Source of the DNA: Tethya wilhelma
Taxonomy: Eukaryota; Porifera; Demospongiae; Tethyida; Tethyidae
Assembly: GCA_964030475.1 (NCBI GenBank)
Contig: CAXIPT010000001.1
Span: 538,229 to 602,228 of the forward strand
Length of the DNA: 64,000 nucleotides
Direction of reading: 5' to 3'
Part shown: positions 19,554 through 43,550 of the stretch, one piece after another
Layout: each line of letters begins with the position of its first letter
Position numbering within the stretch: the first letter of the stretch is position 1
The notes under the pieces: model-generated
What the model was told of the DNA's origin: nothing
The model's input: only the letters and a program-made list of their open reading frames with translations
Database searches by the model: none
Translations under genes and position numbers: made by a program

Positions 19554-22500
19554 GGCACTCCCCTGACCCCCATGGCTAACCTGAAGGTGCTCATAGCAGC
19601 AGCCAGCTCAGCCTTTGAGAAGGAGTGTGCCCGTGGCAGTAGCTCATGTGAAGTGAAGACAGAGGAAGGAGGGGCCAGTGAGGACACCGGAGGGAGGAAG
19701 ATGAAATCACTAGCTGTCCTCTGCAAAAAGTGAGCATCAGCTGCATGAAATCAGAACCGAAACTTGTTTTTCACATTATTAAATGTTTAGACAACTCTGT
19801 TTATTGTGTATGTTTGCTAACATTAAAATTCTTTGTTAAAATACCTTTCAAACAATATTACCAAATTGAAAATGCCCAGCCTATTGTTCATACTTGTCTC
19901 CACCCCTCAGGTTCCTGTCAGTAGCAGAGACTGCTGTTGGCATTGGCAATGACTTCAGTCTGGAGATGATGTCTCAGAGCCTGGATACCAATCGTCGTCG
20001 TATCTATGACATCATCAATGTCCTCGAGGCGTTGGAGATGATCGTGAAGCAGTCCAAGAACTGGTACACGTGGCTGGGCAGTGAGAACATGCTGGTCACC
20101 CTGGCTAAGATGAGGGTATGCTAAGCTATGAACACAGATCATGCAGTGAATTGACATTAAAGTGCATGAATGTACACCTCATCTCATTCACAAGTGTCCC
20201 TCCCTTTCTGTTCTGAGAGTTATTTAAAAGTCTTTTTTTTTCCTGTTTACTTTTCAGGCCATGGCTCAGGATGACCCTGAGTTCCGTGTTCTCTTGGACA
20301 AGGAGAACTCCTCCCCTAGCTCTCTGAGTGCTGGTGGTGGGGGTGGGCCTGTGAGGGCTGAGGAGTACAGCGAGGAGAGACTGGTGGAAGAGGGCGTGGC
20401 AGTTGGACTGGGCAATGGACGATGGGACAAGTCCCTCGGAGTGCTCTGTCAGAAGTTTGTCATGCTCTTCCTGATCACTCCAGTGAGTTAACTGCACCGA
20501 CTACAGATAGAGTAGACTGTTCCATTATCAATGGCAGTACACAACATACTGTAATGTTTGCTACTACTGTTTATACCTCCATTGTGTCCCAGGAGCATGA
20601 GGTGACTCTGGAGTATGCTGGCAATGTGCTGATGCCTGATACCATGGAGTACTCCAGCAGTGGGGTTCTCATACAGCCAGTCACCAACCCCAAGAGTGAG
20701 TTGTAAACTACACATTGCTTGGAGAAACAGATGCCTATATTTTCTCTTTCCCTTTCTCTTCAGCTAAAGTCCGTCGTCTCTATGATATTGCTAATGTGCT
20801 GACGACTCTGGGACTCATTAAGAAGAAGACATTCTTAGCTCCCAACCATCGGAAGATGCCAGGCTACTCATGGTCTGGACCCAGCCTAGCTGAGATACAA
20901 GCCATCCGTAAGAACACTGATAATAATGCTAGTGGTTTGTCTTATTAACCCATATAGGTTGTTGCAGATAATTCAGATAAGCTAAAGTACTTTTTTTGTA
21001 ATCTATTTCAGCTGCTACTGTACCACTTGTGGTGTAACCCTCTACCCCACTCGTGGTTGTGGTATAGCAGGGAAAAAATTGTAGAACAAAAAAATCCCCT
21101 GCAGTTAAAATTATTTAACTGCACACTCTCTCTCTCTGTCTCTTTCTGCTGCAGCTGTGTTTCGTAAGAGTGAGTACAATCTCTACCCGTTCTACTCCAA
21201 GAAGAAAGGTGGTGCCAGTGCCAAAGGAGGTGTGCCTCTCTCCAGGAAGCCCTCTCTCGGCAGTGTGAGGCCCTTCCTCCATCAGTATGAGGTCAAGTCC
21301 AGCAGCAGTGATGGACCAAACTCCGCCCCAACCACACCCATCAAGTCTCAAGGGGGTGGGTTCAGAAGGAGTCTCTCCTTTGGGGCTGGTCCATCTCGCG
21401 GAGGGACCTCAAGGCCGAGTGTACCGGTCCCCATTGCTCCAGCTCCCCCTCCCTCTCTCTCATCATCAGCTCCTCCTACCTCCAGTGGCAACAACAAGAG
21501 TGTCCTTGCTAGACCATGTGAGGGAGTATAGCTGGATGTACATTGATGTGTGTTTGAATGCTCTCTCTACATGCATTGCTACAGTGTGTCCAAAGCAACT
21601 CAACTACTCTCATGAGCTGCAAGAGTTTGAAGCAGAAGTTTTGAAACACTCCCACAAGTACCCTCATGATATCCTCACATTCTAACAATACTCATGTGTA
21701 GATTAAATTTGCACAAGTACAATGGAACTTTCTCCAATAGCATGTGATGTGATTTGGGGTAGCCTGGGAATTGTATTGTGTGTACTTGTAACATTTGAAA
21801 TACTGTATATTCCTTGACTTCTCTGCACTTGCATTCCTCTTCCATGAGTTCATCCGCAAGTATCAGAGCTCTCTGGACCAGGTGGCTGCCAGTGGACGCT
21901 CCATTCTACCCAAACTGCCCCTCAGCAGTTCCACCCCTGCCTCCAGTGCCCCTCCCATCAAACCACCCTTCAGTCCGGGAGAGCTGGCTCGTAGTCTACT
22001 GGGTCTCACCTCATTGGCCACCAGTGAGTCCACCAACAGCATCATCAGTGCTGCTGCTGTAGCGGCTGCTGGTGGGAAACCACCATCCACAGCTGAAAGT
22101 AACAACTCTGGAGCTGTTCTTCAACTGGCTAACTCTATCCTCTCTGCCAAGCAATACAATGAATCTTCTACAAGTGAGACTGGCCCTGATGGTAAACCGA
22201 CTGAGAAGGCTCCAGCCACCTCCACCAAAGTGCCTGCCCCTAAGGACCATCTCTCTGTGATCCCCTCCTCCACCCACGGCACCTTGACATCCCCCAGAGA
22301 CAAGTCCCGTGCCTTCTTGAGCGTCGAGGAGGTCCTGGTGAGCTCAGAGAAGCAACCATCAAACACTCAAACACTCCAAGTGTTGGGCTCCCTCGTGAAC
22401 CAGAAGCCCATCCTAGCCTCGTCTGCCTTCCCTGCCAGTGTCTCCTCTACCTCCCAACTGGGGGTCAAACCCACCCCTCCCTCCTCTCTGATAGCTGCCA

Positions 22501-22802
22501 CCATCCCACGAGTGGTCCACTCCTCCCAACCCCAGACCTTCAACCCGGCAGCCCTCCTCACAGACCCGGCCAGCCAGCTAGTGCAGTGTGCACTCCAACC
22601 AAACCTCTACTACCAGAGCATCAACCCTGGCTTCCCCGTCACAACCAGCCTGTTGAGTCTCTCCTCCCTCTATCCATCAGTAGCAGGCAGTGGCAGCGGT
22701 TCTGCTGTGAGCTCCAGGGGGGGTGCTTCTTATCTTGGGAAGAAGTCAAGTTCGTGTGATAGCAGTGAAATTTCTCCTCCAAAACGACCTCACTTAGAAT
22801 AG
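19096..22802 (+). CDS. atypical E2F transcription factor, E2F7/8 type (two DNA-binding domains)
   Basis: Nine exons: 19096-19366, 19555-19729, 19911-20115, 20258-20482, 20593-20695, 20764-20907, 21155 to ~21520, ~21588-21660 and ~21819-22802. The first winged-helix domain spans MKSLAVLCKKFLSVAETA to TNRRRIYDIINVLEALEM, the second DKSLGVLCQKFVMLFLITP to KVRRLYDIANVLTTLGLIKK. Two tandem RRxYDI-NVL domains and no DP-dimerisation segment define E2F7/8, which repress E2F targets in late S phase without a DP partner. The C-terminal half is long, Ser/Pro-rich and ends KKSSSCDSSEISPPKRPHLE. An intron contains a (CT)n run with seven unresolved bases. The exon 8/9 junction does not keep phase cleanly in my reading, so that boundary is uncertain. 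Confidence 0.88.
19494..19551. repeat. (CT)n microsatellite with an N gap
   Basis: Seven N bases (19487-19493) are followed by about 29 CT units, forming the polypyrimidine tract just before E2F exon 2. Length is unresolved in the assembly. Confidence 0.9.
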
Positions 22803-23001
22803 GCATCTGGAGAAACTCTATCTTATCTTTTATTGATTATCCTAATGTTAAAAAAATAATAGATGATTCTGTTCTATTGCACACGAGTGGATAATGGTTA
22901 TTCTCTTTATTATAGAGTACAGTTTTATGAAGGTTTTTTTCAGAGCAAAGTTTGAGCCTTACATGCAAAAAGGGGTGGGGCTGTCCCTTTTCAGCTAGTT
23001 G

Positions 23002-23278
23002 ATGACATCACTTTGTTCTAATTGTTGCGCATTCGTAGAAGCGGTTTGGCCGGCTTGGGGTGTTTCAAGGTCGGAGGAGATGCGTACCTTCGATGTAGCT
23101 GGATTGATGGAGACACTGCTTCTCCGCTCTGGGGATGTAGAGTTGAACCCTGGACCATCCACTAGTGAGTTGTATATAAAAAAGATGTATACATTAGTTA
23201 GAATTTCCATAGTCAAAGTTTGTCCTAAAATTATATAAATTTTCACGTTTCCTGGTTGTCTTTCTCCCCCCCCCCTTC

Positions 23279-23313
<35 letters not shown>

Positions 23314-26300
23314 GTCGGTCCTCTAGACCCCAGCCATACCTCAACTGTGGAGAATGAGCTGGTGTGTGTGGCCTCTAAATGGAAGGAGTTAGGTGCTGCT
23401 CTCTCTCTCAGCTCTGTTTGGTTAAAGGAGCTGAGTCAGCAAGACAAAGACCCTCTCTCTTCTCTTCACAATGTGGTTGAGCGGTGGTTGCTGAGTGGTG
23501 ATCTCTCTCCCTCCTGGGCCTCCATCGTCAAGGCTCTGGAGAAGCTAGGAGAAGAGGTGCTCTCTAAGAAGTTGAGCAGCAAGTATATCAGCAAGGAGCT
23601 GCCTCTCAGTGGTATGTGTATATTTTTTTAATATGTGAATGCTTGTTAATGCCTGCCAATAGTTGTGTACCTACTCATATCCCTCCTCTCACTTTTTTTT
23701 TCCAGAGAATCCATCTCGTATCGTGGTTCGCCTCCAGCGGCCCCCGTTTGAGGGGTGTGGCTTCAAGAACTGTAATGCCTGCTCTTATGTGATTGATACC
23801 TACCGTTCCATGATGACCCCTGACCTCCCCTACTTGGTCCCCGGCTGGTACCGTAATGGAGAGGAACGCAGGCACGTAATATTGGGAGGATGGGGGGGCA
23901 ACTTATACATTTATACATACAGTGTTTATTTATTGGATGGTTTTAGAGTTCAGTTTGTATGTTCTGGTGTGGCGTGAAGCCACCCAGTGTACGCTGTATT
24001 TGTGTGTTACTGAAAATATACACCGATCTATTACAGAGAGAGGCTTCTTCTGGAGCACAAGGAGATGCTCCACGCCTTCCAAGACCTCCTCTCCACTGCG
24101 TGGCGAGCTCTCGTGAGGAAGGGCATGACAACTGATAGGCTAGTGGCCCACCTGGAGTCCCTGGGAGGGGTCATCACAGACAAGCATCAGGTGGAGCAAA
24201 TACCCGTCTTCTCTCGGGTCATCGAGCGGTTCAAGGAGAACCAGTCACTGGAGGAGGTGTTCATGGACCTCAGGGACTACTACTCCTACTTCAACTACCA
24301 CCTCATCAGGAACCTCCTCAACTCCTTCTGCCCCTCCATGGAGGGACAGAGGATCCTCAAACAATACGAGGAGAAGTTTCGCTTCTTCACCCAGCACAAG
24401 ACGGTGGAGGCACCCTCGCTGCTCCTCATCCCCAATCCCCACGGCCACGCGTACATCACGGTGAGGATGGACCGTGACCCACGGAGGGTGTCCCTCATGG
24501 ACGTGGACCTCTACCGCCAGAGGATGTCCATCCTGCTCCGGTTGAAGGAGTTCTCCCTGAGGGTGATCTACGTGAAGACCATGGAGGATGGGAGGATGGA
24601 GACTGTCTACCAGTTCCCCCAGTGGCTGAGGTCAAAGGTGTTCCCCCTGTCAGAGCAGAAGGAGTCCCAGCTGAGAGAGGACGGGATCATCTACTTCGGC
24701 TGCTGTGATTACATCTTTACAGCTCCGGTGAGTGAGAGCCTGATGTGTAGTTTTACAGGATATTTTGCAATAGAGAACATATATTTGAATTTTGGAGGTG
24801 TTTCCAAGTGTTAGTGATGAATGCTCAATTTGTGGTAGCAATACACTCTTGGGTAGTTTGCTTATTCACAATCATTTCTTTAGTATGTGAGTGTTTGCAA
24901 GTGTACGTGGTATGTCTAGAGATATAGAGAATGGAAAGTGCTAATAATGAAAATTCTTTGTGTGGTAGTTTACTTTTCACAATCATTTCCTGCTTCAAAG
25001 TGTGCATATGTTTTGACAAGATTCACGTCTGACAGTTTTTATACTGTACATGAATCTATATAATGCCCACCATTGACCATCCCTGCTCCCTCTCCTCCAG
25101 CCTTCCAACTACGAGGCGAAGCTCATTGAGGCCCTGTATGGTGTCCCTACGCTGCCAGAGGATCCCAATGAAGAGATCTTCCCTCTTCCTCCCTTTGAAG
25201 GTGTCACTAACGAGGCCTTGCTCAAGAAGATGATGGCCGTCCTCTCTGAAACAGACTTCAAGATGGCTCTGGACCAGGACAGTGTCACTGCAGGACAACT
25301 AGCACTTGCCAGACTTGGAATGGAGAAGAAGAACACTATTAGCATTGTACGTGATGCCAGGGATGGACTTGTGGTGTTTGCTCTCATTCTCGGGCAGCAC
25401 ATTTATCTAATGAAAAATGCTCAAAAGCTTGCGAGGATCGTTGTTGTTGCCAGCACTAAACCACGCTGTGAGGCTCTCCACAAGGAGCTGAGTGCCCTCT
25501 TCCCTAAGGCTAGCATCGGGCTGTTCACCGGGACAGAGAAGGAGAGCATCTCCACCAAGCTAGACTCCCTACAACACAACGTCCTCGTGTGCACAGCTGG
25601 GAAACTCTTCCGTGACTACCAGAGCAGGACTCTCCTGGACGCCATCTCTCTGCTCCTCATGGAGGACTTCAACAACACCATGTTGAACACCTCCCTCAGG
25701 GACGCCGCTCACATCTACCTGGCTGCTAAGATCAACTACTACCGCAGGAAGACCCCCCACATGGTCGGCATCATGGCCTCACCTGGAGATGGAATTGCTT
25801 CCTTGACTGCGGACGATATGGAGGTGAGGTTGTTGAACTTTGCTGCTACGGTTGACGGTATGCGCCCCCCTGTTCATTATCCCAAAGGGGATTTCCCCAA
25901 AGACACCCAATTCAGTGTGACATCATTCAACTATCGAGATCCAAAGAGAGACTTTGTAGCTCATCTCTCGGTGGAGATGGGTCGTCTTGAGAACCAGTGT
26001 GGGCTCACTTGCCCCTTTGAGAAATGGTCCCCTGCCTACTCCTCTTTCATTCAGACGTTCAAAGACACTCTCTCCAGTTCCAGCACTCTCTCTTCTGACC
26101 CAGCTACTTTGGGCCACCTGGAGATGTTGCTGTGCTGCTCCAAAGCCATGGCCGTCGGCAGGGAGTTTGGTTGTGAGGATGCCGTCCAGGTCCTACGTAG
26201 GCACACCCTCTCCTCCGACCCCCTGATGAAGGGGGTGGAGAATGCCCTTGTGTTGTTACAAGCAGAGCTTCAAAACATTGTGACGAGAAAGCACACCGTT

Positions 26301-27302
26301 GTTGAGACAGTGCTTGGTCACCTGAGCAGCCAGTTCTCCCAGAGTCCACTCTCCAAAGGCATTCTGTTCGTGGACTCTTACAAGGAGGGCCAGTTCTTGT
26401 GCGAAGAGATAAAGAAGCATCTCTTTCACGTCCGCCCCACCTTTGTGGACCCTCTCTACCTGGACAGAGATGCTGACATGGAGACGGACTCCATCTTCAT
26501 CCAGGAGCAAGACACCTTGAAGAACTTCACCCGTGGGGAGTGTCGTCTCCTCGTCATCCCCTTCCCCATCGAGGAGGAGAGGGATCGGCTCCAGCTGCCC
26601 TCTTGTCACTTCATTCTCCGTCTCGTCACGGAGATCCCCTCCCCAGTCATGGTGGAGCTCCTCTACACCCTCACTGTCATCTCCAGCTCAAACCAAAAGC
26701 CCGTTCCCAATCTGCTGGCTGACCTGCAGATGAAGTTGATGGAAGTGGTTCTAAAGAAAGATCCCTTTTCAGACCAGACTGAGAATATGACGAGGAGGAG
26801 ACAAGGGAACTTGGTTCAGGACTACCTCACTCAAACCCGGTTCCCCTACGCCGCCCCAACCAGGAGGAAGGGGAAGAAGGTACCAGCCGAGAAGGTCGCC
26901 CTCAAGTGCAAGCAGTGTCGGACGTACGCCTGCAGGGGGAAGGACATCTTCACCCTCTTTGCTGACGGGGGACAGTTCTACGTCGTTCCCGATCGCAACT
27001 TTCGTCTGCGCTACATGACCAAGACTTACCGGTCAAAGCACCAGACGATAAAGAGAATCACCCGCCAGCACAGGATAGTGTGCCGGAGCTGCAACTCTCG
27101 TTGGGGCTCCATCTGCTACTTCCCTGCCAGGAAGTGTGCCATTCCCGTCATCAAATCAAAGTACTTCCTGTTTGATACGGACGAGAAATTGTTGATAGTG
27201 AAGCTTTGGCCACATGCTCCATTTTACGTGCCCCCAATCACAACATGCGACAATTTCAGATCAGTGGCCGCTAGTCCGAGCCCTCCCAGTGAATCAGAGT
27301 AG
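23002..27302 (+). CDS. 2A-Death-domain RIG-I-like receptor with degenerate helicase
   Basis: Five exons keep phase (23002-23164, 23315-23611, 23706-23875, 24041-24727, 25101-27302; 1172 aa). Exon 1 ends in a 2A-like peptide, LLLRSGDVELNPGP. Exon 2 is a Death domain (ASKWKELGAALSLS, WLKELSQQDKD, SWASIVKALEKLGEEVLS). Exons 3-4 hold a segment of unknown function with DYYSYFNYHLIRNLLNSF. Exon 5 is RLR-like: LARIVVVASTKPRCEALHKE, LLLMEDFNNT at the DECH position, MVGIMASPGDG at the GLTAS position, and a C-terminal RNA-sensing domain with CKQC and CRSC zinc pairs and RWGSICY. RLRs sense viral RNA in the cytosol. Here the P-loop GKT and DECH are gone, so ATP hydrolysis is unlikely; RNA binding by the zinc domain may remain, with the Death domain as output. 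The second acceptor choice in exon 4 is by phase. Confidence 0.8.
23134..23157 (+). other. 2A-like ribosome-skipping motif DVELNPGP
   Basis: Codons at 23134-23157 read DVELNPGP, preceded by LLLRSG. This matches the consensus D(V/I)ExNPGP at which ribosomes skip the Gly-Pro bond. Established precedent: 2A-like sequences occur at the N termini of sea urchin NLR proteins, where they make a mix of leader-fused and leader-free protein. The leader here is short (from ATG 23002, or the in-frame ATG at 23080). Exon 1 splices in phase 1 directly into the Death-domain exon, so the motif belongs to this gene. Confidence 0.85.
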
Positions 27303-27589: not shown

Positions 27590-29374
27590 CTAGTCCATGA
27601 AGTGCCTTGAAGGGTTGGCTCCAAATAGAATAGTACGGATCTCTGGCATCATCTACATGCAAACAAAATGATTATTAGTTCACTCATTAAAATTGAAAGC
27701 TAACTATAACTTCTTACCTGTGCTGCCATCAGGTCTAATCTGCTTTCCAAGGTATTCACAATCTTGATTTTGCCTTGATGAGCATACATTTCGACACCCC
27801 CAGCACTGAATATGTATAAATACCCAAATATTAGTCACTTCCCTTCAGTTGGCTCTGTGGCTTAGTTGGTTAAAGCGCCTGTCTAGTAAACAGGAGATCG
27901 CCGGTTCGAATCCGGCCAGGGCCTTTTTTTTTTTCCCCTTGTCCCACACACAGAATGATCTTTTTTTACTAACCTGTCTGGAGAAATGTACTCTTGAGTA
28001 TCCACTATGATTTTACACTGTTTTCCAGTTCCAGCAGTGTAACTAGCCTGAGCAGCTGGTATGACAGCCTGCATAACATTAGTATCAGGGTCACCATGAT
28101 GGCCAAGTACATATTGATGTACACCACTTTAAAAAAAACGAACCTTGACAAGTGCAAGATCTGCTTTTCTACACCGTATAATAAGTTCTGGTTCAAGCAT
28201 TTGGTACAAACCCTGACAACAGAAAAAACATAATCAAACAACAATCTAACAATGCTCAGATTTAATATATGATTTATCCATAAAGAATAAAAGTCTGAGA
28301 CAAAAATATTGAATATTTTCATCCCTGTGTTCTTAAAATAAGAGCTGGACAGACTAGGCACACTAACGAACCTATCTACCTAAGGTTCTAACTGTTAAAA
28401 CCACATAATTATGGGAATCAACCATACAGAGAGGCTATCAGCACAGGTTCATGTACCCGACCAATACCAATGTCCCCACTGTCTTAATGATAGAAACAAA
28501 AAAAACAAACTTTTCATACCTGTGTTATAAGTTCTTGAAGGAGCTTCTTCCATTGTGCTGGGTCCTTGGTGATCTCCCCTAGCTTCATACGGGACTCCTC
28601 TAGGAGTCTCTTGACATGATCATCTCTTGCCTTCAGCACAGACAGCCTAGCTTGGTTCAACATGTTAGAGTGTTGGCTGGAGGAAAAGGGGCTATTGACA
28701 ACCAGCATTTAGACAGTTCAGAAGACAACTCACATCTTACGCTGAAGTTCAAGTTGCTTCTCTTTTCTTTCAAAGAAATTTGACACTTTCCTTTTCTCAT
28801 TTTGTAAGAGTCTGCCTTTTTCGATGTTGAACTCCTCTTCAGCCTGAGATAGGGTAAGGCAAGGCAAGAGTGACATTGGAGAGACATGGACAGTCTATTT
28901 CATAGAAACATCACTAATGGTGTTCGTAAAATCATGTGAAATGTTCAACACATTCTCCGATGAATGGAACACCATTTCAAACACACAATCACAACAGCAA
29001 CAATGCTCTCCCTCCCACCCCCAACTCTCTCTCATCAACATAAGAATGAGAATTGTATGACTTATATCAAGATTCTAGTCGTTGATCATTTAATATCAGT
29101 GTCCTAAATTTTTATGCTGACACGTACAACTTTGGTATGGTAACTTTATAGTTATCATATCCATAGTACAGACAAGCTACAATTAATGTCACCTTAATCA
29201 AGATCTCCTCTGCTTTCTCTTTGGCTTCTTGCTCAATAAACCTCTTCATATGCTTTATCTGTAGGCCCAGCAACAAGACACCAACATCACATGATCACTT
29301 CATCTACCCTGCCTAGGAGAACCACGGCTCATGCTACGTACCTGCTTCTCAACCTCTGCATCCGAGAGCGCCAT
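27590..29374 (-). CDS. ATP6V1E: V-type proton ATPase subunit E
   Basis: Eight minus-strand exons join in phase to exactly 226 aa, the length of human ATP6V1E1: 29342-29374, 29193-29258, 28734-28843, 28520-28676, 28144-28212, 27974-28068, 27718-27805 and 27590-27652. Motifs include MALSDAEVEKQIKHMKRFIE, EEEFNIEKGRLLQNEKRKV, MLNQARLSVLKARDDHV, YQMLEPELIIRCRKADL, AGGVEMYAHQGKIK and LFGANPSRHFMD at the C terminus. Subunit E is part of the peripheral stalk (with G) that holds V1 still while the rotor turns, acidifying endosomes and lysosomes. All splice sites are GT-AG. A tRNA gene lies in the intron at 27806-27973 on the opposite strand. Its start is 0.42 kb from the NRPS-like gene, head to head. 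Confidence 0.96.
27851..27924 (+). tRNA. trnT-AGU: tRNA-Thr (anticodon AGT)
   Basis: A full cloverleaf can be drawn. Acceptor stem GGCTCTG (27851-27857) pairs with CAGGGCC (27917-27923). The D arm contains TTAGTTGGTTAAAG, the anticodon stem CCTGT/ACAGG encloses loop CTAGTAA with anticodon AGT, and the T arm is CCGG-TTCGAAT-CCGG. No intron and no encoded CCA. A run of about ten T follows at once and is a standard Pol III terminator. Internal A and B boxes (TGGCTTAGTTGG, GGTTCGAATCC) are intact. It sits inside an intron of the V-ATPase E gene, transcribed on the other strand. Confidence 0.96.
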
Positions 29375-29796: not shown

Positions 29797-32700
29797 ATGC
29801 TGGGAGTATCAGCTCATACAAAGGAAGAGGAAGGCAGTCTAAAGAATGGACACCTTCACAGAAACTTCCCAAGGATTGTGAAACAAAAGAAGCAAGTGAA
29901 TCCACTAGTGGCAGCTCCATGTGGTGACAGGGACACAATGACTGGAGGTGGTGGAGGGCCAGCTCAAGAGCCTCTCGTGTTCCCACTCTCTCCAAGACAA
30001 GAGAGAATGTACTTCATGCAACAGGCCCATCCTGACTCAAGGTGGGCGGTGCTTGCTAATTAGCATGACAATAATTATAAGGAAACACAGTTCTGGGAGG
30101 AGTTGAAAGGCTTGTTAAATCAATTAAGTTACTGTAGCACTGCCCAAGCATTGTATAAGATGACATGTAGTGTGTGTTGCTGTTGTGGCCACTGGATTAG
30201 AGTACCACCCCCTGTCTGTGTTTTAGTTGTTCCTTTACAAGTGCTAAACAAATCTGGATATAGCACTGCCCCCACTCTATAGATACCTGAATCAAATGAT
30301 GAAATATTGTTATAGATGGGGTTCAACTGTTAATAGTAATTATTACTTTGATATTTTAATAACAACTGAGCCATTGTTTTCATCATATGTAGGGCTTTCA
30401 ATGTAGCTGTGTCCATCCACCTCCAGTGTAAAGATGGCCATGGTAGCATCTCACCAGACCACTTGGAGAAGCTGACTTCAGCCCTAGAGACCATCATCAG
30501 CCGACACAACTCACTCAGGGTATCATTCCAGCACAAAGAGAGTGACAACAAAATGGAGTTGCAGCTCGTTCAAACTCTTCATCCGGCCAGTGAACTCAAA
30601 CTCTATGAAGTCATTCCCACTCTACCTGAGAGCAGTGAGTCTGAGGCAATACATACAGAGGTGTGCCGACCTTTGGACCTCACAAAGAAACCGTTCCGTT
30701 TCTCCATCCTCCGTTTCTCCAAGAGGAACCTCGTCCTAGTGATGACCATCCACCATATTGTCACTGATGGAGTGTCTGTCTTCATCACCATGAGGGAGCT
30801 ACTCCAGCTGCTGAGAGGGGAACAGCTTGAGCCAGCAATGGTGCAGTTCAACCATCTCCTCACCTCAAGGCCACTGCTCACATCTTCTCTTAGACACCCA
30901 GCTGCCGTTGATGACCCAAAGAAGAAGAAGAAACTTGACAAATGGATCGACCTGTTCTCCTCTGCTACCAGCTGCACCTCCTTCCTCTCTCACCTCCAGG
31001 AGTTTGACCACACCTCTGCCACGACAAGACCATTTACAAGTGACCACTGCTACATTGATCTGTCCAGAGACATCACGAGTGCCTTGAACACTCTCTCCCA
31101 CTCCCTCAACGCCAGTCCTGTGGTGGTCCTCTCAGCAGTGTTCTCCCTGGCCCTCCACAGCCTCACTCAAACCAACGACATCATCATTGGCATGGTCAAC
31201 GCCAACCGTAACACCAGGAGTGCCAATGTCCTGGGCTACCTCGTCAACACCCTGCCCCTGCGGGTTGACCTCACTGCCTCCTACTCCAGAGACCTCAAGG
31301 AGCTGGTGAGACACGTCCGACGCAACTGGAGCATGGTGCTGGATGGAGACATTGACCTCGGTGACCTCATCCCTCTATTGCCGTGTCTCCAACACACGGG
31401 GCAGCGGGAGGAGAGGTGTTCTTTGGAGGAGTCCCCCCTCCAGGTGTTCTTCTCCTACTACAGTGTGAGTGGCTTTGAAGACCTCCCCACCCAGCTCACC
31501 ATGGAGGGGGTGGAGTTTGACTGCCACACTGAGGTGCCGAGGCCCAACGAGTCTCACGCCAATCTATTGCTGGAGTTCAACCCAAGCAAGACCAACGACC
31601 AGGGGCTGCCAGGGTTCCTGTGGGAGTACCAGACCAGAGCTCTCAATGGAGATAAGATCAGAGTCCTTCACTCTCTGGTGTGTGGCTGTCTACTGGAGGC
31701 TGAGAGTCGTCTCACTGAGAGAGGAGGAGCTGCAGCGATAGTGGACCCTCGATCACTGATGGCCAGCCTAGCACAATCACTGTCTCACGAGACAACAGCC
31801 AAAGATAAAAGCTACTCCATTGCCAGAGGGACACCACTAGCCACAGCTCATCACCGCCTCCGTGATGACCTGGTGTACATCCAGTGGTTTGAGGAAGTGG
31901 CCAGAGAGCATCCAACGTCTCCTGCCTTTCGTTTGAAGGAGGACAACTCTCATCTGACATTCAGTCAGGTTCGCACCATCGTATCCCACCTTGCTGTGAT
32001 GATCCTGGAGGTAGGAGTGGGGCCCGGCCATCACGTTGCACTCTATCTCAAGCGTACCCCACTACTCTATCTCTGTGTGCTGGCCGTCTTGAAATGTGCA
32101 GCAGGCTACGTTTGCCTAGCTCTCCAGAATTCCCCCAAACGTTGTGCCAAGCTGGTGGAGTTGGCACAAACAAAGTTGGTGATCACAGAGAGTGCTCTCC
32201 TTGATAAGCTACCCTCTCTCTCCTGCCCCCTCCTCACCATAGACCCATCCACAACCACCCTCATGGAGTGCCGTCCTCTGACACCCAGCCAAGAGAAGAG
32301 ACTGTCCCATCTGGAGACCTGCTACTCTCCCTCTCTCCCATTCTACCTCATCTTCACGTCTGGCACCACTGGTGAGCCCAAGGTAGTGGTCATCACCAAT
32401 GGCAACATGCAGGCCACCCTCCACAACTACCTCTCCCTCGTCTCTCCCCAGGAGACCCGTGTCACACTGGCATCGTGCAACCTCTCCTTCGACGGACACA
32501 TTGTGGACAGCCTCGCTCCACTCCTCAATGGAGGCTGTCTGGTTGTCACTGAGAACATCACCCGGCTGGATGGAGGCGACCCTTACATGGCAAATGTCAC
32601 TGCCCTGTTCAGCACTCCCAGTGCAGCCGCCCTCGTCTCCTACCCTCCTTCCCTGAGGCTCCTGTTGGTCGGGGGTGAAGCCATGAGCAGAGCATGCCTC

Positions 32701-34851
32701 CAGAACACCATGGCAATACATCGTATCTTGAACATGTACGGTCCATCAGAGTGCACTGTGTTTGCTACTGTCAGGGAAGTCTCCAGGAGCCTCTCTCTGG
32801 ATGAGCTGGTCGTCTCTGAAGCTGCCATCATCGGTCGGCCTCTACCAAATGTGGAGCTGTTTGTTCTTGATGACTCCATGCAGCCTGTCCCGGTCAACTG
32901 CCCGGGAATCCTCTACATCAGTGGCCCCATTGTGTCCGACGTGGGCTACTACCGTGACCCCCGAAGGACAGAGAGGAACTTCATACAACACTCCATCAAC
33001 AGACCAGTGGGTTCCTCTCGCCAGTCAAAGAAGGAGTCTGTCTACATGTACAACACTGGGGACTGGGTGTGCATGCTGCCTGATGGGAACTTCAAGTTTC
33101 TCGGTCGTAAAGATGACCAGGTGAAACTCCGAGGGATGAGGTTCCAACTGCTGGAGGTGGAGAAGGCCCTCTCCAGCTGCCTGGGAGTCAAGTCAGCCAT
33201 CGCTCTCGTCACTAACCCCGGCACATCTTCAGCCACCCTGGTTGGCTACGTCACTCCCAGGGACGTGGATAGGAGTGATGTCCTGAGCCACCTTGGCAGC
33301 CTCCTCCCCTCATACATGGTCCCCTCTCTCCTGGTGCCTCTGGACAGGTTCCCCCTCACCAAGGAGGGTAAGGTGGACAGGAGGGCTCTCAAGGACATGC
33401 CACTCTCTCAGATGGCACACTTGCAAAGGAAGGAACATAATAGTGAGTCTGTTGTAACGAAGCTGACCAAGATCTTTGGAAGATGTTTGCAAATTGACGA
33501 CTATCCTGTTGATGGGAATTTCTTTGCACACGGAGGTCACTCTCTGCTGTGCTTTCAACTCATGAGACAAGTCAACCAAGAGCTGGGGGTGAGACTCAAC
33601 CTCACACACATCCTACAGCAGCCAACACCTCAAGGGCTGGCCAACCACCTCAGTCACAGACTGGAGAGAGGAGGAGGTGCAACTGGGAGCAAGAAGGAGA
33701 AGACTGAAATGAAGCCGACTGAAATTACATCAACCTTTCCCCACTCACAGCCACCATCAGTGAGGGAGGAGAGGAGTAAAGACCACCATGTTATGAGAGG
33801 GTTGATCTCAGAGCACCTGCAGAGAGAGCTGGAAGCAATCTTCAACAGCTCATCAACATCAGACGAGGCCAGTCGAGAGAGGGTGTCCACCCTCCTGGCT
33901 CAAGAGACAGGCTATGACATCCCGGGGGAGAAGCTGTGCCACTACTCCTCAGTGGAGATGCTGGAGGTGCATCTGGAGCTGAGGAATACCATCATGTTCC
34001 GATCCACCCCTCAGCCGGTCACCACCACCCTCTACCCTCCTAGCTCACCAACAGACACTCCCGTCTTCTTCCTCCATGGAGGCACCATCTGGTGGGGGCT
34101 GGCCTTCACCAAACTAGCACACACTCTCAAGATGTACAGTGTCGGGGTGCAGTGCAGCCAGGAGGCTTCACAGCAGTCGACACTAGAGGAGTTGTGTGCC
34201 TTCTATCTCAAACACATCCAAGCCATCCAACCACACGGACCTTACCGCCTGGCTGGGTATTGTTTTGGCTCCTTCACAGTGTACGAGCTAACCCGGCAGT
34301 TGAGTGAGCTGGGGGAGAGGGTGGACCTGGCGGTGATGATAGACAACTCACCAATGATTGCCCGAGAAGTGAGACCTCTCCTCTTCACCCCCCACGGCCA
34401 GCCCTCAGTGACCAGTCCCATGCACCCCTACCACTACTACCGGGACAAGCTCATGGTGGACCTGTCTCAGGACGATGAGCTGAAGGCACTGGAGAGAGAG
34501 GAAGTCACGGCTGAGGAGATGGTGAGAGCTCTCCTCACCAAGTACCACTGGCTGCCCTTCACACTGCAGGAGCTGGTGCAAGAATATCAGCAGTCATTTT
34601 CATTTGTCAAGAAAGGCATGCTACTCTACCAGCCCCAGCCGATAGCAGAGAAGAGTGCCGGACTGGTGAAACATGTCCTCCTGTTTCGAAACAGAAAGAT
34701 GCTCCGCCTGTTCAGGTCACATGACTATGGACTGAAGGAGGTGGTGAGAGAGGACAGTCTCAGTGTGATCATCTCACCCCACGACCTCCTCCTGGACAAC
34801 AGCGAAGCCATGACCTTTGTCAGCTCAGTCATCAGGAGCTACACTGGCTGA
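29797..34851 (+). CDS. monomodular nonribosomal peptide synthetase-like protein (C-A-PCP-TE)
   Basis: Two coding exons (29797-30041, 30393-34851; 1567 aa). The condensation domain starts at PLSPRQERMYFMQQ and keeps catalytic HHIVTDG (~202-208). The adenylation domain has the AMP-binding loop FTSGTTGEPKVV (~735), LSFDGHIVDSLAPLL, NMYGPSECTVFA, YNTGDWVCMLPDG, FLGRKDDQVKLRG and the C-terminal lysine motif FPLTKEGKVDRRAL. The carrier domain has HGGHSLLCFQL (~1128), whose Ser takes phosphopantetheine. The thioesterase has FFLHGG and GYCFGSF (~1369), so the nucleophile position is Cys instead of Ser. It should activate one amino or similar acid, condense it with an acyl or aminoacyl partner and release the product. 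Introns, 5' UTR intron and animal neighbours argue against bacterial contamination. Substrate unknown. Confidence 0.88.
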
Positions 34852-38400: not shown

Positions 38401-40247
38401 TTGTACATACACCCACCCATGTTGCACTCACACCCACCCAATGACACAGCTACACCCACTCAAGATACGCCTATGCAGTGGGGCTTGATATAAAGGACAC
38501 CGCTAGGCCGAGAAATCTTGTGCGACTTGTCACTTTCAGGGACAAAGACTTCAACTTGGAAAAAAGGAAGGAAGAACAATGCTTACTGCACTGATTGTGG
38601 CAGCTTTATGCTTGTCATCAGCTGTAAGTTTGTAAGACATTTGTCTTGAATACTTCTTAACTCTCTCTCTCTCACACACACATGCACAACAATAGTTTGC
38701 CCAGGATGAGCTGGCAATAGCTAAGCCAATCATCGTCCCAACTATTGGTCCCCCAACCATCCTGCCTCCTCCTCCCCCACCTGATGTCTGTACCCCTCTG
38801 AGGTTTGAAGTAGAAGATGACATTGCTGGTAAACTCAACAGAGGAGAGCTGAGTCTTGCCGCTCCAGAAGCAGCACCAGCAGATGGACTTGCTGCTGCTG
38901 ACAGCTTTGTAGCCCCAACCATCAGACCAGTGAGGAGATGTGAGGATGGGCCAGTTACAGTACGTTGCAATCCTGGAATTCTTTGCATGTGCATACAGTC
39001 TCATACCATGCAGTTATGGTATAGGCTTATAATTATGTGCACGCATGTATATGTACTACGTGTGTTTTTAGCAGTTGACTGGTAACATGCATCTTCTCAA
39101 TATATGCAGGTGATTCACTCTGTTCCCAATGAGTTCCACTGGCCACCAATCAAGCGTAAGTCATGTAACAACCTCTACTGCAAGGACCCTCCGTGCTTCG
39201 TTCGTAGTCAGATCTGGCGCACAAAGTGTGTGCTGGTCTTCAAGAAAATCAATGGCTACTGGGTCAGGATTGGCTACCGTCTACGTCGCTACCTGGACCA
39301 CCTCAAGTGTGGCTGCAAGGAGTGCACTGACATTCGCGACCGACTGTGGTGTATCAAGACCACTCCCTGTCCCAACAGCGATGATCCCAACAGCTTCTGT
39401 CGCTGGATCCCCTTCATAATCTACCCTCCTGTTCTCACGGCTGAGGCAGCTGCCATTGCTCCTGATCCCATTGAGGATGACCTGGTCATCAAGCCAGTAC
39501 CTACCACCATCCCTTTCATACCAGGACGATGTGTCTGCTGTAAACCAGTTCCCTGCAAGCCTCCTAAATTCTTCAACCGTAACACGTGCAGATGTGAGTG
39601 TCCTTGGAGACCACCCTGCCCTCCAGGTCAGACCTTCAACCCCAACACATGTGAGTGTGACTGCCCACCAGGCACTAAAAAGAATGAAGACAACCAATGT
39701 GTTGGACCGTAAGTTGGTTGATAACATATTAGCAAGGTAATAACTGATTTCACTATCAATATTGTCCATACACACATTCATGCATGCACGCCACACAGTT
39801 GTGAGAAGCTAACCAGTCAGCAGTGCCCACTGATATTCTGTGACGACAACCCTAAGCATCGATGCAGACTTAATGCATACAACCGTTGTGAGTGTCCCAG
39901 CTGTGATGATTTCGAGAATGATCCAATGTGGTGCAAGAAAACAAAGCAAGTCAACAAAATAATGATAATCAACTAGTCCAAGAACAATCAAGTGACTAGA
40001 TCTGAATGTGTGCTGTGTCTGTAGATGCATTGAGCAGCCCATGAAGCTTGACTGTGTGGTGGACTCATACTCTCACAAGTGTCGCTGCCCAAGATGTGCT
40101 GATGCAAAAGACCCACTCTGGTGTCACAAAACACGATGTGGACTAAACAATAGCATCCAATGCAGGTATACAATACTTCAGTGATAGAAATGAACTTAGA
40201 GCTGCTACAATATATGACCCAATACATGGCTAGCTATCATGATATTC

Positions 40248-40288
<41 letters not shown>

Positions 40289-43200
40289 GTCCACTGACAG
40301 ATGGCAGTATTCTTGGCCACAGAGATGTGCATGCCCAGGCTACTGAACACCATGGCAACACAACTTAAACATTAATGTATCAAAAGTGTATACAACTAAG
40401 CTTAAATTTTTAAAACCTAGAACTATAGGTTACTGCTGTGCATAAATGATTTATATATATTTTCCAATGATTATTGAGCCATGATTGTACAGTAACACTG
40501 ACACCATTATATACAATATGGCAAGGGAGGGAGCATGACTGCATGCATGCATGTAAATATGTGACATGTAGATATTGCTCGGAGGAAATGAACAATGAAT
40601 ACCGTATAGACGGAAACTTTGGCGAGGATTTTATTTTGGCGAAATTGGCGAATTTCGCCAAATCGCCAAAATTAAATCCGCCAAAATTTAACCGCAAAAC
40701 GTAAATATTGGAGTACGCGCCGGTGTCACAGGACCAGAGCTCCCCCCGAAAATTTTCTCCGGGGGAGAATTTCTCCTAAGGGTAATTTCTCCCCCCGGAG
40801 TTAATTTCCTAGGACGGAATCTCCCCCCTTAGGATACAAGCTCCCCCCCAAACAACGAGAGTTTATACTGTTGTTGATGGTCATGAGGTACTAAAAAGGC
40901 TATGGATGAATGTCAGATTCTATACAAGCTTGTAGGACTATGAACCAATGGTCAGACACAAACATATGGCTGGACAGAGTCGAATATAATAACTTTCTAT
41001 TTTATCGCTAGGCGTGACTGATTGAGGAACGGAACGAGGAACGCAGCTATACGGTAGCTCTATCCCTAGTCCTAGCTCTAGCCCTAGCCCTAGCGCTAGC
41101 TCTAACCCTAGACCTAGCATTACTAGATCATACTATTCTATTCATATCGTTTTTTCTTCACAATCAACAAGTTCAAGGCAGTAAAGGCACCCGGAGTGCC
41201 AGTCCTGTGGGAGGAGTCCCAGTCCTAGGGCAAAGTCTCCAGGGGGGAGGAAATATCCTTAGACCGGATCCTCCGGGGGAGGAGATTTTACCCGGAGTGA
41301 ATATCCTATGACACCGGTGCGATCACGATAAAACGGTAATAGAGCTACGTTTTCTCCACAGTTCTTCACGAAATAAGCTTGAAACATGCTATATAAGTGC
41401 AGGGATACTTAGGCTATAAAATCTATAGCATCGCTTTTGAAAATTTGGTTGCCTGGCTAGAAAAAAAGCTTCAGATGCGCGGCAATATCACGATCGTCCT
41501 GTAGTTTCTTTTACACGGGAAAAAGCTTCACTGTTAATGTAAAAGGCTCTCAGCAGAGTTAGCCTGATTGCTTCTTAGCTTCATTGCAAGAAAAAGCTTT
41601 CTCCACTCTATTTACTAAAAGAAAAACAAAAAGAAGGCGTAGCTACTAACCTCGCCGTATTACGTAATGCACTTTCAAAGTTTCACTCGCCAAAATTAAT
41701 GTTCGCCAATATCGTTTGAGTTCCCTTTCGCCAAATTTAATTCTCGCCAAAATAACCGGCCATACGGTATTAATGATTCTCACAACCTGTTGAAGGACTG
41801 ATGGTCTCAGTCATCAATGAAAAGTAAATATTCAGTGACAAACAAGAATCCTGAACTAAAATTGATGTCCGTTTTAAAAGTCCATGTCAATTTTCAAAGG
41901 TAGTACATCTCTTGACCCTATAGGAGAGTCTGCATGTTGCATGCAACAGCAGAACACTGTATATGTCATAGAGGGCGATTCATTGAGGGCAGTGTATAAG
42001 GAGAAGGATAAAAGTTTTCTTACATGTTAACAATTTGTTCTTTCATTCACTCGTTCCAGTCACAGACAAGATGAATGATTCATTCAGAGTGGTTCATGAC
42101 ATAATGTGATGGATTCACTTTGTACATGCCATAATGCTAGTGCCATGTATCAACAACATGCTCAATGGGTTATAGTTTAGTCACCAGGGAGTCTAGCTAG
42201 ACTCACGAGCTAGTTTGGAGTAAATTAGAAAGAGACCTCAAAGTACAGGCATATGAGTTTCTGATGGTCTTTAAGCTAGCTAATGACAGTGAAATAATTA
42301 TTATAGATTATACTCACTCAAGGCTGTGACAAATTAATGTTATAAGCAGTCAAAATGTTTGTCTTGATGGTAATGCTTGCTCTATCAGTCCAGGTAAGAT
42401 ACAATATCAATCAATTGCATGTATGCAAGGCAAATAACACAATAAACTGGATCTATGTTATATGGAGGTTGTTTCTATTATGTATACTGACTTGTGAAAT
42501 GTTTTGTTACTCTAACATAAATTGTTGCAATATACAGCAATCAGAACAAACTATGAGCATGTCAAAACGTTGGGACTTAACATATTTCCATTCTACAACT
42601 GGTAAATATTATGACTAGTATAAAAACACTATAATAATATTGAATACTACACATACATACACATATTTTAATACAACAGCTGATGAATTACTTGATCAAC
42701 TCAACAGTGGACTGTCTGTTAGTGACCTCAGTCTATCATCGCGACCCCATGACCCTCCATCACACTGCAATGATGGACCACAACAGGTAAAACCTCATGC
42801 ATGATTCCCTTCCAAATCCTCATCAAACCATATACTATACAGGTGCTGTACACAGTCCCCAATGAGTTCCACTGGCCCCCAATATTCCGAGGGCAGTGCT
42901 ATAGCCTGTTGTGTGATGAAGGGAGGCCATGTCTTCTCCGAAGGATGGACTGGAAGAGTAGCTGGGTGTTGGTCTTCAAGAGGAACGACTCTCTCTGGTC
43001 AGAGGCCGGCTATGAACTGAAGTGGTACCTGGACCATCTCAAGTGTGGCTGCCCCAACTACTGTAGACCACCAAGAGTCATGGTGGAGGGAAGATGTGAG
43101 TGCTCTGAGATGAGGTGTCCCCACCCTGGTCAGACCTTCAACTCCACCAGCTGTGAGTGTGAGTGCCCACCAGACAGGGCCAAGAGGGACGATGGACGGT

Positions 43201-43550
43201 GTGTCAGAATGTAAGGAGAGGGGGAGGGAGGGTATAGGCTGAGGAGAGTTTGGAAGTGTTCTTTATCTTAATTGCTGGTAGATGTGAGGGGGCAGAGAGG
43301 AAGCACCACTGTAAGGGACGCCATCCTCCTCCACACAAGAAGAAGAAGCAAAAGTGCTTGTGTCCAAAATGTGAGGATCAAAGTAACCCATCAGAGTGTG
43401 CAAGGACATATTGTGGACACCATTACAACACACAGTGCCAGTAAGACCATCACACACACACACNNNNNNNNNNNNNNNNNNNNNNNNNNNNNNNNNNNNN
43501 NNNNNNNNNNNNNNNNNNNNNNNNNNNNNNNNNNNNNNNNNNNNNNNNNN

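Follow-up and report, generated by a model that had tools for sequence, protein, structure and literature searches.

In Tethya wilhelma, a gene related to RIG-I, a sensor of RNA viruses, has a last exon that encodes a RIG-I-type C-terminal domain and a predicted first exon that encodes a virus-like 2A ribosome-skipping motif. We analysed a stretch of 64,000 nucleotides of this sponge (hereafter the window), in which the predicted first exon of the gene encodes the 2A peptide LLLRSGDVELNPGP. We think it rather probable that this exon is spliced to a Death domain and a RIG-I-like back end, and that skipping at the 2A frees a receptor that starts with proline. The best reading of the gene as a whole is that a 2A-Death front, shared with other loci of the genome, has been placed before a RIG-I-like back end.

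A canonical 2A motif in the predicted first exon

Translation of the window reveals the octapeptide DVELNPGP in an open frame at 23134..23157 of the plus strand, immediately after the hexapeptide LLLRSG (23116..23133, plus strand). Skipping is predicted between the Gly and the final Pro of this core. The translated segment 22999-23172 contains MRTFDVAGLMETLLLRSGDVELNPGPST. The predicted coding exon 1, comprising leader and 2A (23002..23164, plus strand), codes for MTSLCSNCCAFVEAVWPAWGVSRSEEMRTFDVAGLMETLLLRSGDVELNPGPST plus one extra base and is followed by GTGAGT (donor CTA/GTGAGT after 23164). The initial annotation had placed a 2A element in this exon, and its presence is confirmed here, with the canonical motif in a frame that stays open to the GTGAGT donor. 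A six-frame scan of the window for ExNPGP returned the exon 1 site as the single occurrence and no second one.

Upstream, the frame of exon 1 is stopped by a TAG at 22996-22998, and candidate start ATGs lie at 23002, 23080 and 23107, with a purine at position –3 for 23080 only. Counted from the Met at 23080, the presumed start, through the last Pro, the 2A leader is 26 residues long; counted from 23002 it has 52. Another ORF on this strand stops 200 bases ahead of exon 1, at 22802, and probably closes a gene of the E2F type. The E2F domain lies at 19870-20121, and the final ORF (end 22802) itself has no Pfam match.

The sequence around the core was compared with what the available passages of two studies report on 2A function. 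A 2026 survey defines 2A, or StopGo, sequences by the octapeptide (D/G/C/N)(V/I)ExNPGP, a pattern into which the in-frame DVELNPGP falls (PMC12846837). In the same passages, motifs 2 and 6 are LLLLSG-like upstream contexts, a representative of motif 6 skipped in a cell-free assay, the favoured residues preceding NPGP include L, and G before D is usual (PMC12846837). By inspection against these classes, LLLRSG, with its G before D, can be placed among the LLLLSG-like StopGo contexts and fits a permissive upstream context. In the sea urchin 2A, mutations of R11, L13 and L14 are among those that reduce recoding most, according to the passages available (PMC4981915). The window 2A is identical to the sea urchin sequence at these three residues, with positions counted from the mutation names given there.

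A five-exon gene model

Five predicted exons on the plus strand (23002-23164, 23315-23611, 23706-23871, 24037-24727 and 25101-27302) join into one open frame that codes for 1172 residues and has its only stop at the end. Predicted intron 1 (23165..23314, plus strand) is a phase 1 intron of 150 nt that begins with GTGAGT and ends in a CT-rich tract closing with AG, (CT)nAG, directly before 23315. Joining exon 1 to exon 2 (23315..23611, plus strand) in phase 1 reopens the frame into the Death-domain exon. The in-phase splice proposed in the initial annotation therefore holds as a predicted join, with donor and acceptor giving a frame that is open through all five exons.

Exon 2 contains no Met. 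Its Pfam Death match, with an E-value of 9.7e-4 and 19.7 bits, is under the cut-off of 22.6 bits; it scores 63 bits with a local Death family profile, which exon 2 itself helped to seed. Exon 3 (23706..23871, plus strand) is a Cys-containing linker without a Pfam match. Intron 3 stays in frame in two ways, either with a GC donor that ends exon 3 at 23871 or with a GT donor that ends it at 23875, combined with an acceptor four bases further on. A plain GT-AG pair would leave the gene out of frame after exon 3. Exon 4 (24037..24727, plus strand) is a module found at other 2A-Death loci, and exon 5 (25101..27302, plus strand), with the stop at its end, encodes a RIG-I-like pseudo-helicase and C-terminal domain. 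Neither NACHT nor LRR was matched by Pfam in exons 2, 3, 4 or 5. Downstream of the gene, a tRNA-Thr (AGT) lies at 27851-27924 on the plus strand.

The 2A-Death front recurs across the genome

A 2A codon pattern, defined as D-x-E-x-NPGP with a T in the middle of the second codon, occurs at 77 sites in the 124.6 Mb assembly, against 0 for the reversed pattern, so that the 2A site of the window is not a chance occurrence. We read 41 of the 77 sites (the window and 40 of the 76 others). A Death profile match lies on the same strand within 4.9 kb downstream at 30 of these 41, and antisense ORFs yielded such a match at 0 of 41. Four sequences, one of them from the window, seeded the profile, which was then iterated; among the loci that did not seed it, 26 of 37 matched. 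Many of the Death-linked loci are tandem relatives, and the counts are thus not independent. These rates leave aside a genome-wide Death search in which 150 of 591 candidates were scored. The initial annotation had pointed to other Death-domain genes as places to look for the motif, and the motif does recur upstream of other Death matches. The first GTR after NPGP, a mechanical pick of putative donors, stands in phase 1 at each of the 30 Death-linked loci, and at 22 of them it has the offset of the window, +7 nt. At least 12 of the 36 remaining 2A sites have a Death or exon-4-like match within 10 kb downstream, judged by position alone.

The front was also recovered outside this assembly. Searching with a profile of three 2A-Death ORFs of this genome returned nine proteins (7684 candidates). 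In both P0007 (an ENA contig of 1376 bases) and P0008 (a JGI contig of 1757 bases), a single unbroken ORF spans 2A and Death and is collinear with the predicted spliced product of the window. Both match the Death family profile, in which neither took part: P0008 scores 52 bits, with a Pfam Death E-value of 2.3e-7 that is above cut-off, and P0007 scores 64 bits, with a Pfam Death E-value of 0.0079 that is below cut-off. In P0009-P0013, the 2A sits in a short ORF that has no Death profile match, and P0005 and P0006 have a Death profile match with no 2A. Taken together, the same-strand Death matches at 30 of 41 sites and the 2A-to-Death ORFs of P0007 and P0008 argue that the 2A-Death front is a shared module. 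The join of exons 1 and 2 in the window is in turn supported by its phase, by the GTR phase and offset of the sister loci and by these two uninterrupted ORFs. In L044, P0008, P0010, P0011 and P0012, the leaders are long and start with a motif similar to WRARIG or WRAAVG, at some distance ahead of the hydrophobic stretch and the 2A; the leader of P0013 has YRLAIG.

Since 11 of the 41 read sites have no Death profile match, two of them being retrotransposon-like, the 2A motif alone does not mark the module. At L011 and L018, the 2A sites lie inside PHD-like ORFs that resemble, by eye, non-LTR retrotransposon proteins. The 2As of such elements have the same core motif as the window exon, which differs from them by its host-gene arrangement. 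We rejected the notion that a retrotransposon 2A had been misread as a host exon, as the window has the +7 phase-1 donor and the Death exon of the family downstream. One further site, L047 (G000:C4:2844359), encodes DVESNPGP after a charged, non-hydrophobic stretch, with GTAAGT in phase 2 and no Death match; it may represent another type of 2A gene or a chance occurrence.

What follows the front varies from locus to locus. Pfam matches in the largest downstream ORF of ten chosen 2A sites were ankyrin repeats at four, an AIG1-type GTPase with fibronectin repeats at one, ZU5 with a COR-A match below cut-off at one, COR-A or Roc below cut-off at two, NB-ARC below cut-off at one and a reverse transcriptase ORF at one. 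From their position, these ORFs would lie in one gene with the 2A exon, which is doubtful for the reverse transcriptase. The initial annotation had described the 2A for the RLR (RIG-I-like receptor) gene. It is not peculiar to that gene, as the 2A-Death leader module also precedes ORFs with ankyrin, GTPase/FN3, ZU5 and other domains.

Exon 4 (230 residues) has 57 matches in the genome at an E-value of 0.001, itself included. A same-strand 2A lies within 12 kb upstream of 21 of the 57 (the window included) and of 12 of the 16 best, and the corresponding count for opposite-strand 2As is 0 of 57; the other 36 have no 2A inside 12 kb. Eleven aligned members have a conserved C-terminal half in common. 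Five of these eleven relatives weakly match TRADD-like_N, with a best E-value of 3.8e-4, and the window exon 4 has no Pfam match to TRADD-N. Against the protein database, 0 of 204 candidates reached an E-value of 0.01. Judged from its sequence relatives, exon 4 belongs to one module with the 2A-Death front.

A RIG-I-like back end without helicase motifs

Exon 5 contains a RIG-I_C-RD match with CxxC...CxxC cysteines at 26898..27242 (plus strand), with an E-value of 1.9e-15 and 57.5 bits against a cut-off of 25.6. The helicase region upstream has diverged at its catalytic motifs. At the place of motif I (25347..25367, plus strand), the window reads VRDARDG where a contig 5 paralogue has APTGSGKT, at the place of motif II it reads MEDFNN in contrast to IDECHH, and motif VI is absent. 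The exon overall still aligns to RLRs. The identification of the gene as an RLR was thus correct as regards the RIG-I-type C-terminal domain, but with helicase motifs I, II and VI gone, the gene does not count as an intact RLR. LGP2 keeps its ATPase motifs and is not known to have a Death domain or a 2A. Among solved structures, LGP2/DHX58 (PDB 9lou and others) is the best sequence match to exon 5, with an E-value of 4.7e-12.

Three database homologues, P0002-P0004, are 59, 54 and 51% identical to exon 5. They too are without motifs I and VI, motif II is partly kept as DDFH or DDCH, and the same zinc cysteines of the C-terminal domain are present. These proteins are single-ORF predictions that cover 59-61% of the query, and N-terminal exons lie outside the predicted proteins. 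In the search with the full-length product, the 7994 candidates that shared most words were scored. The loss of motifs I and VI shared by three homologues, together with intact zinc cysteines, points to a maintained pseudo-helicase lineage, and we rejected a decaying pseudogene on the same grounds. Exon 5 and P0002-P0004 also have a C-terminal tail in common, PPSESE or PPTESE. Aligning exon 5 against viral and prokaryote contigs led to nothing.

The genome has 12 RIG-I_C-RD matches, namely the window gene and 11 that are clustered on contig 5 (1273176-1322018), one of the 11 being partial, weak and below cut-off. One locus of the cluster, at 1295148-1296971, contains seven stops. Identity between exon 5 and the genes of the cluster is 23-28%. 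By pattern, DECH and QxxGRxR are kept in seven of eight contig 5 cluster loci, and L055 has neither. The one cluster gene that was read at its front has APTGSGKT and an in-frame Met before a Death stretch, which scores 36 bits with the family profile and has a Pfam E-value of 0.016, below cut-off. Near the front of this gene, no ExNPGP was found in 2.2 kb, and the only 2A-pattern site of contig 5 lies 2.7 Mb from the RIG-I_C-RD cluster. The initial annotation had named other RLR genes as further candidates for a 2A, and these loci lend that idea no support. Judged from this one front end, the cluster looks like a set of ordinary Death-type RLRs.

Consequences of skipping and alternative readings

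If ribosomes skip the Gly-Pro bond at the 2A, the short leader would be released and a leader-free receptor starting with proline would be produced. The skipped product is most likely a cytoplasmic receptor without an N-terminal tail, and such a tail-free N terminus might be required for clean Death-Death contacts. Any chains that are not skipped would yield a cytoplasmic form tagged with the leader, not a secreted one, in an amount set by skipping efficiency. The C-terminal domain may bind RNA, and the protein would not hydrolyse ATP. Binding RNA without hydrolysing ATP, the product would act not as a motor-type RLR but as a Death adaptor that is RNA-gated or a decoy.

The leader itself sets this gene apart from its relatives. 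Among the 30 Death-linked leaders, that of the window is the least hydrophobic, with a best 12-residue mean of 1.48 compared with 2.1-3.4 in the other 29. On the same span, the 36 residues before the core, its best 19-residue mean is 0.28; over the full length of the leader, the values are 1.53 for 12 and 1.04 for 19 residues.

A leader without a targeting signal would suit a second reading, which we regard as unlikely, in which the 2A acts as a translational throttle or stability switch. Stalling at the 2A would tie output to elongation or stress, and the N-terminal proline would set the half-life of the product. In line with this, some ribosomes are modelled to terminate at the 2A, and regulation through eEF2 is postulated, in the passages available of PMC4981915; a proline-recognising N-end pathway is cited in those of PMC12846837.

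Dual targeting, in which the unskipped form would enter the secretory path or another organelle and the skipped form would stay in the cytoplasm, is known from sea urchin NLRs. There, the passages available report that SpNLR2A6 behaves in this manner in HeLa cells and also in plant cells, and that 12 of 14 such 2A leaders are predicted signal sequences (PMC4981915). The sister leaders in the Tethya genome are strongly hydrophobic, as this reading would have it. However, the sea urchin effect depends on a signal-sequence leader and the window leader has the lowest hydropathy of the 30, which makes dual targeting weak here, and the exocytic path is of no evident use to an RNA sensor. We therefore consider it quite improbable for this gene that two forms are made at different locations, as the initial annotation had proposed. 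A cytoplasmic product is favoured instead, because the window leader is without the hydrophobic core of the sister leaders.

The same missing stretch could mean that part of a former function has gone, and that the 2A exon is a relic, which arrived with a duplicated 2A-Death front and skips no more in the window gene. Against this, the core octapeptide is intact, as are the residues R/L/L of its context. We know of no need for this combination other than recoding, and a relic strikes us as rather doubtful. Finally, exon 1 could belong to another transcript and the receptor could start elsewhere, given that the exon 1-2 join is a prediction and that 15 ATG-plus-GT combinations in 22803-23314 are phase-compatible with exon 2, but such a gene-model error is very unlikely, as only three of the 15, which are those of exon 1 as modelled, have the consensus donor GTGAGT, the sister loci share the phase and often the offset, and P0007 and P0008 join 2A to Death without an intron.

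Relation to known systems

Precedents are known for N-terminal 2As in the sea urchin NLRs, for sponge RLRs with a Death domain at the head and for Death-TRADD-N families. The sea urchin SpNLR2A system (Roulston et al. 2016, PMC4981915), which the initial annotation had cited as a precedent, is indeed the closest that we found in the sources available. From the available passages, both systems head an immune receptor of the Death fold with an N-terminal leader containing D(V/I)ExNPGP, and they share the R/L/L context and the short leader (26 residues in the window, from the Met at 23080). They differ in their back ends, RIG-I-like in the window and NACHT-LRR in the sea urchin. In addition, the window leader is poorly hydrophobic and is a predicted separate exon with a phase-1 donor, and in the Tethya genome the 2A leader precedes several non-NLR architectures.

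The arrangement is also reminiscent of the Death-TRADD-N expansion of the sponge Amphimedon, where units with variable C-termini are described in 357 proteins in the passages available (Kaur et al. 2021, PMC8195603). Common to both are the Death front, a following module (exon 4 here, with weak TRADD-N similarity in some relatives) and variable back ends, which in Tethya include ankyrin, GTPase and RNA receptor types. The main text of that paper, as far as it was available, contains none of the terms 2A-like, NPGP and skipping, and the RLR fusions that it names are from cnidarians and brachiopods. The A1-type (Death) RLRs of Amphimedon, as described in the available part of PMC8998645, likewise have Death before a RIG-I-type helicase and RD; the window gene differs in that it adds the 2A leader and the exon-4 module and has lost the helicase motifs. 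Within the titles, abstracts and passages of the literature searched, no paper linked 2A to RLRs or sponge Death genes. Little weight can be put on this, since the coverage did not extend to Rao et al. 2025, a survey of 2As in eukaryotes that bears directly on the subject.

Skipping signals of this kind are regarded as rare among cellular genes. With 77 sites in one genome, and at least 30 of the 41 read ones before a Death match, skipping would be in routine use in the host immunity of one animal. RLR biology would gain a relative of RIG-I that is led by a 2A and has a dead helicase, with a back end preserved in three further database proteins. We tentatively suggest, with somewhat less than even confidence, that ribosome skipping is a general design of immune receptors in an animal. 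A mobile 2A-leader exon would be carried by dozens of genes of the Death fold whose back ends are interchangeable, in one of them a conserved, ATPase-dead RIG-I-like sensor, and skipping would set the amount of a leader-free antiviral Death adaptor. The gene also raises a testable question, namely what role N-terminal skipping plays when the leader is no signal peptide.

Other features of the window

Further downstream on the plus strand, an ORF of 1493 residues (30370-34848) combines condensation, AMP-binding, carrier and thioesterase domains and thereby resembles an NRPS of one module; the genome around this NRPS-like gene is probably that of an animal. Two similar-looking cysteine-rich ORFs lie at 39086-39709 and 42774-43211 on the same strand; a CXCXC repeat is matched in the former, with no such match in the latter.
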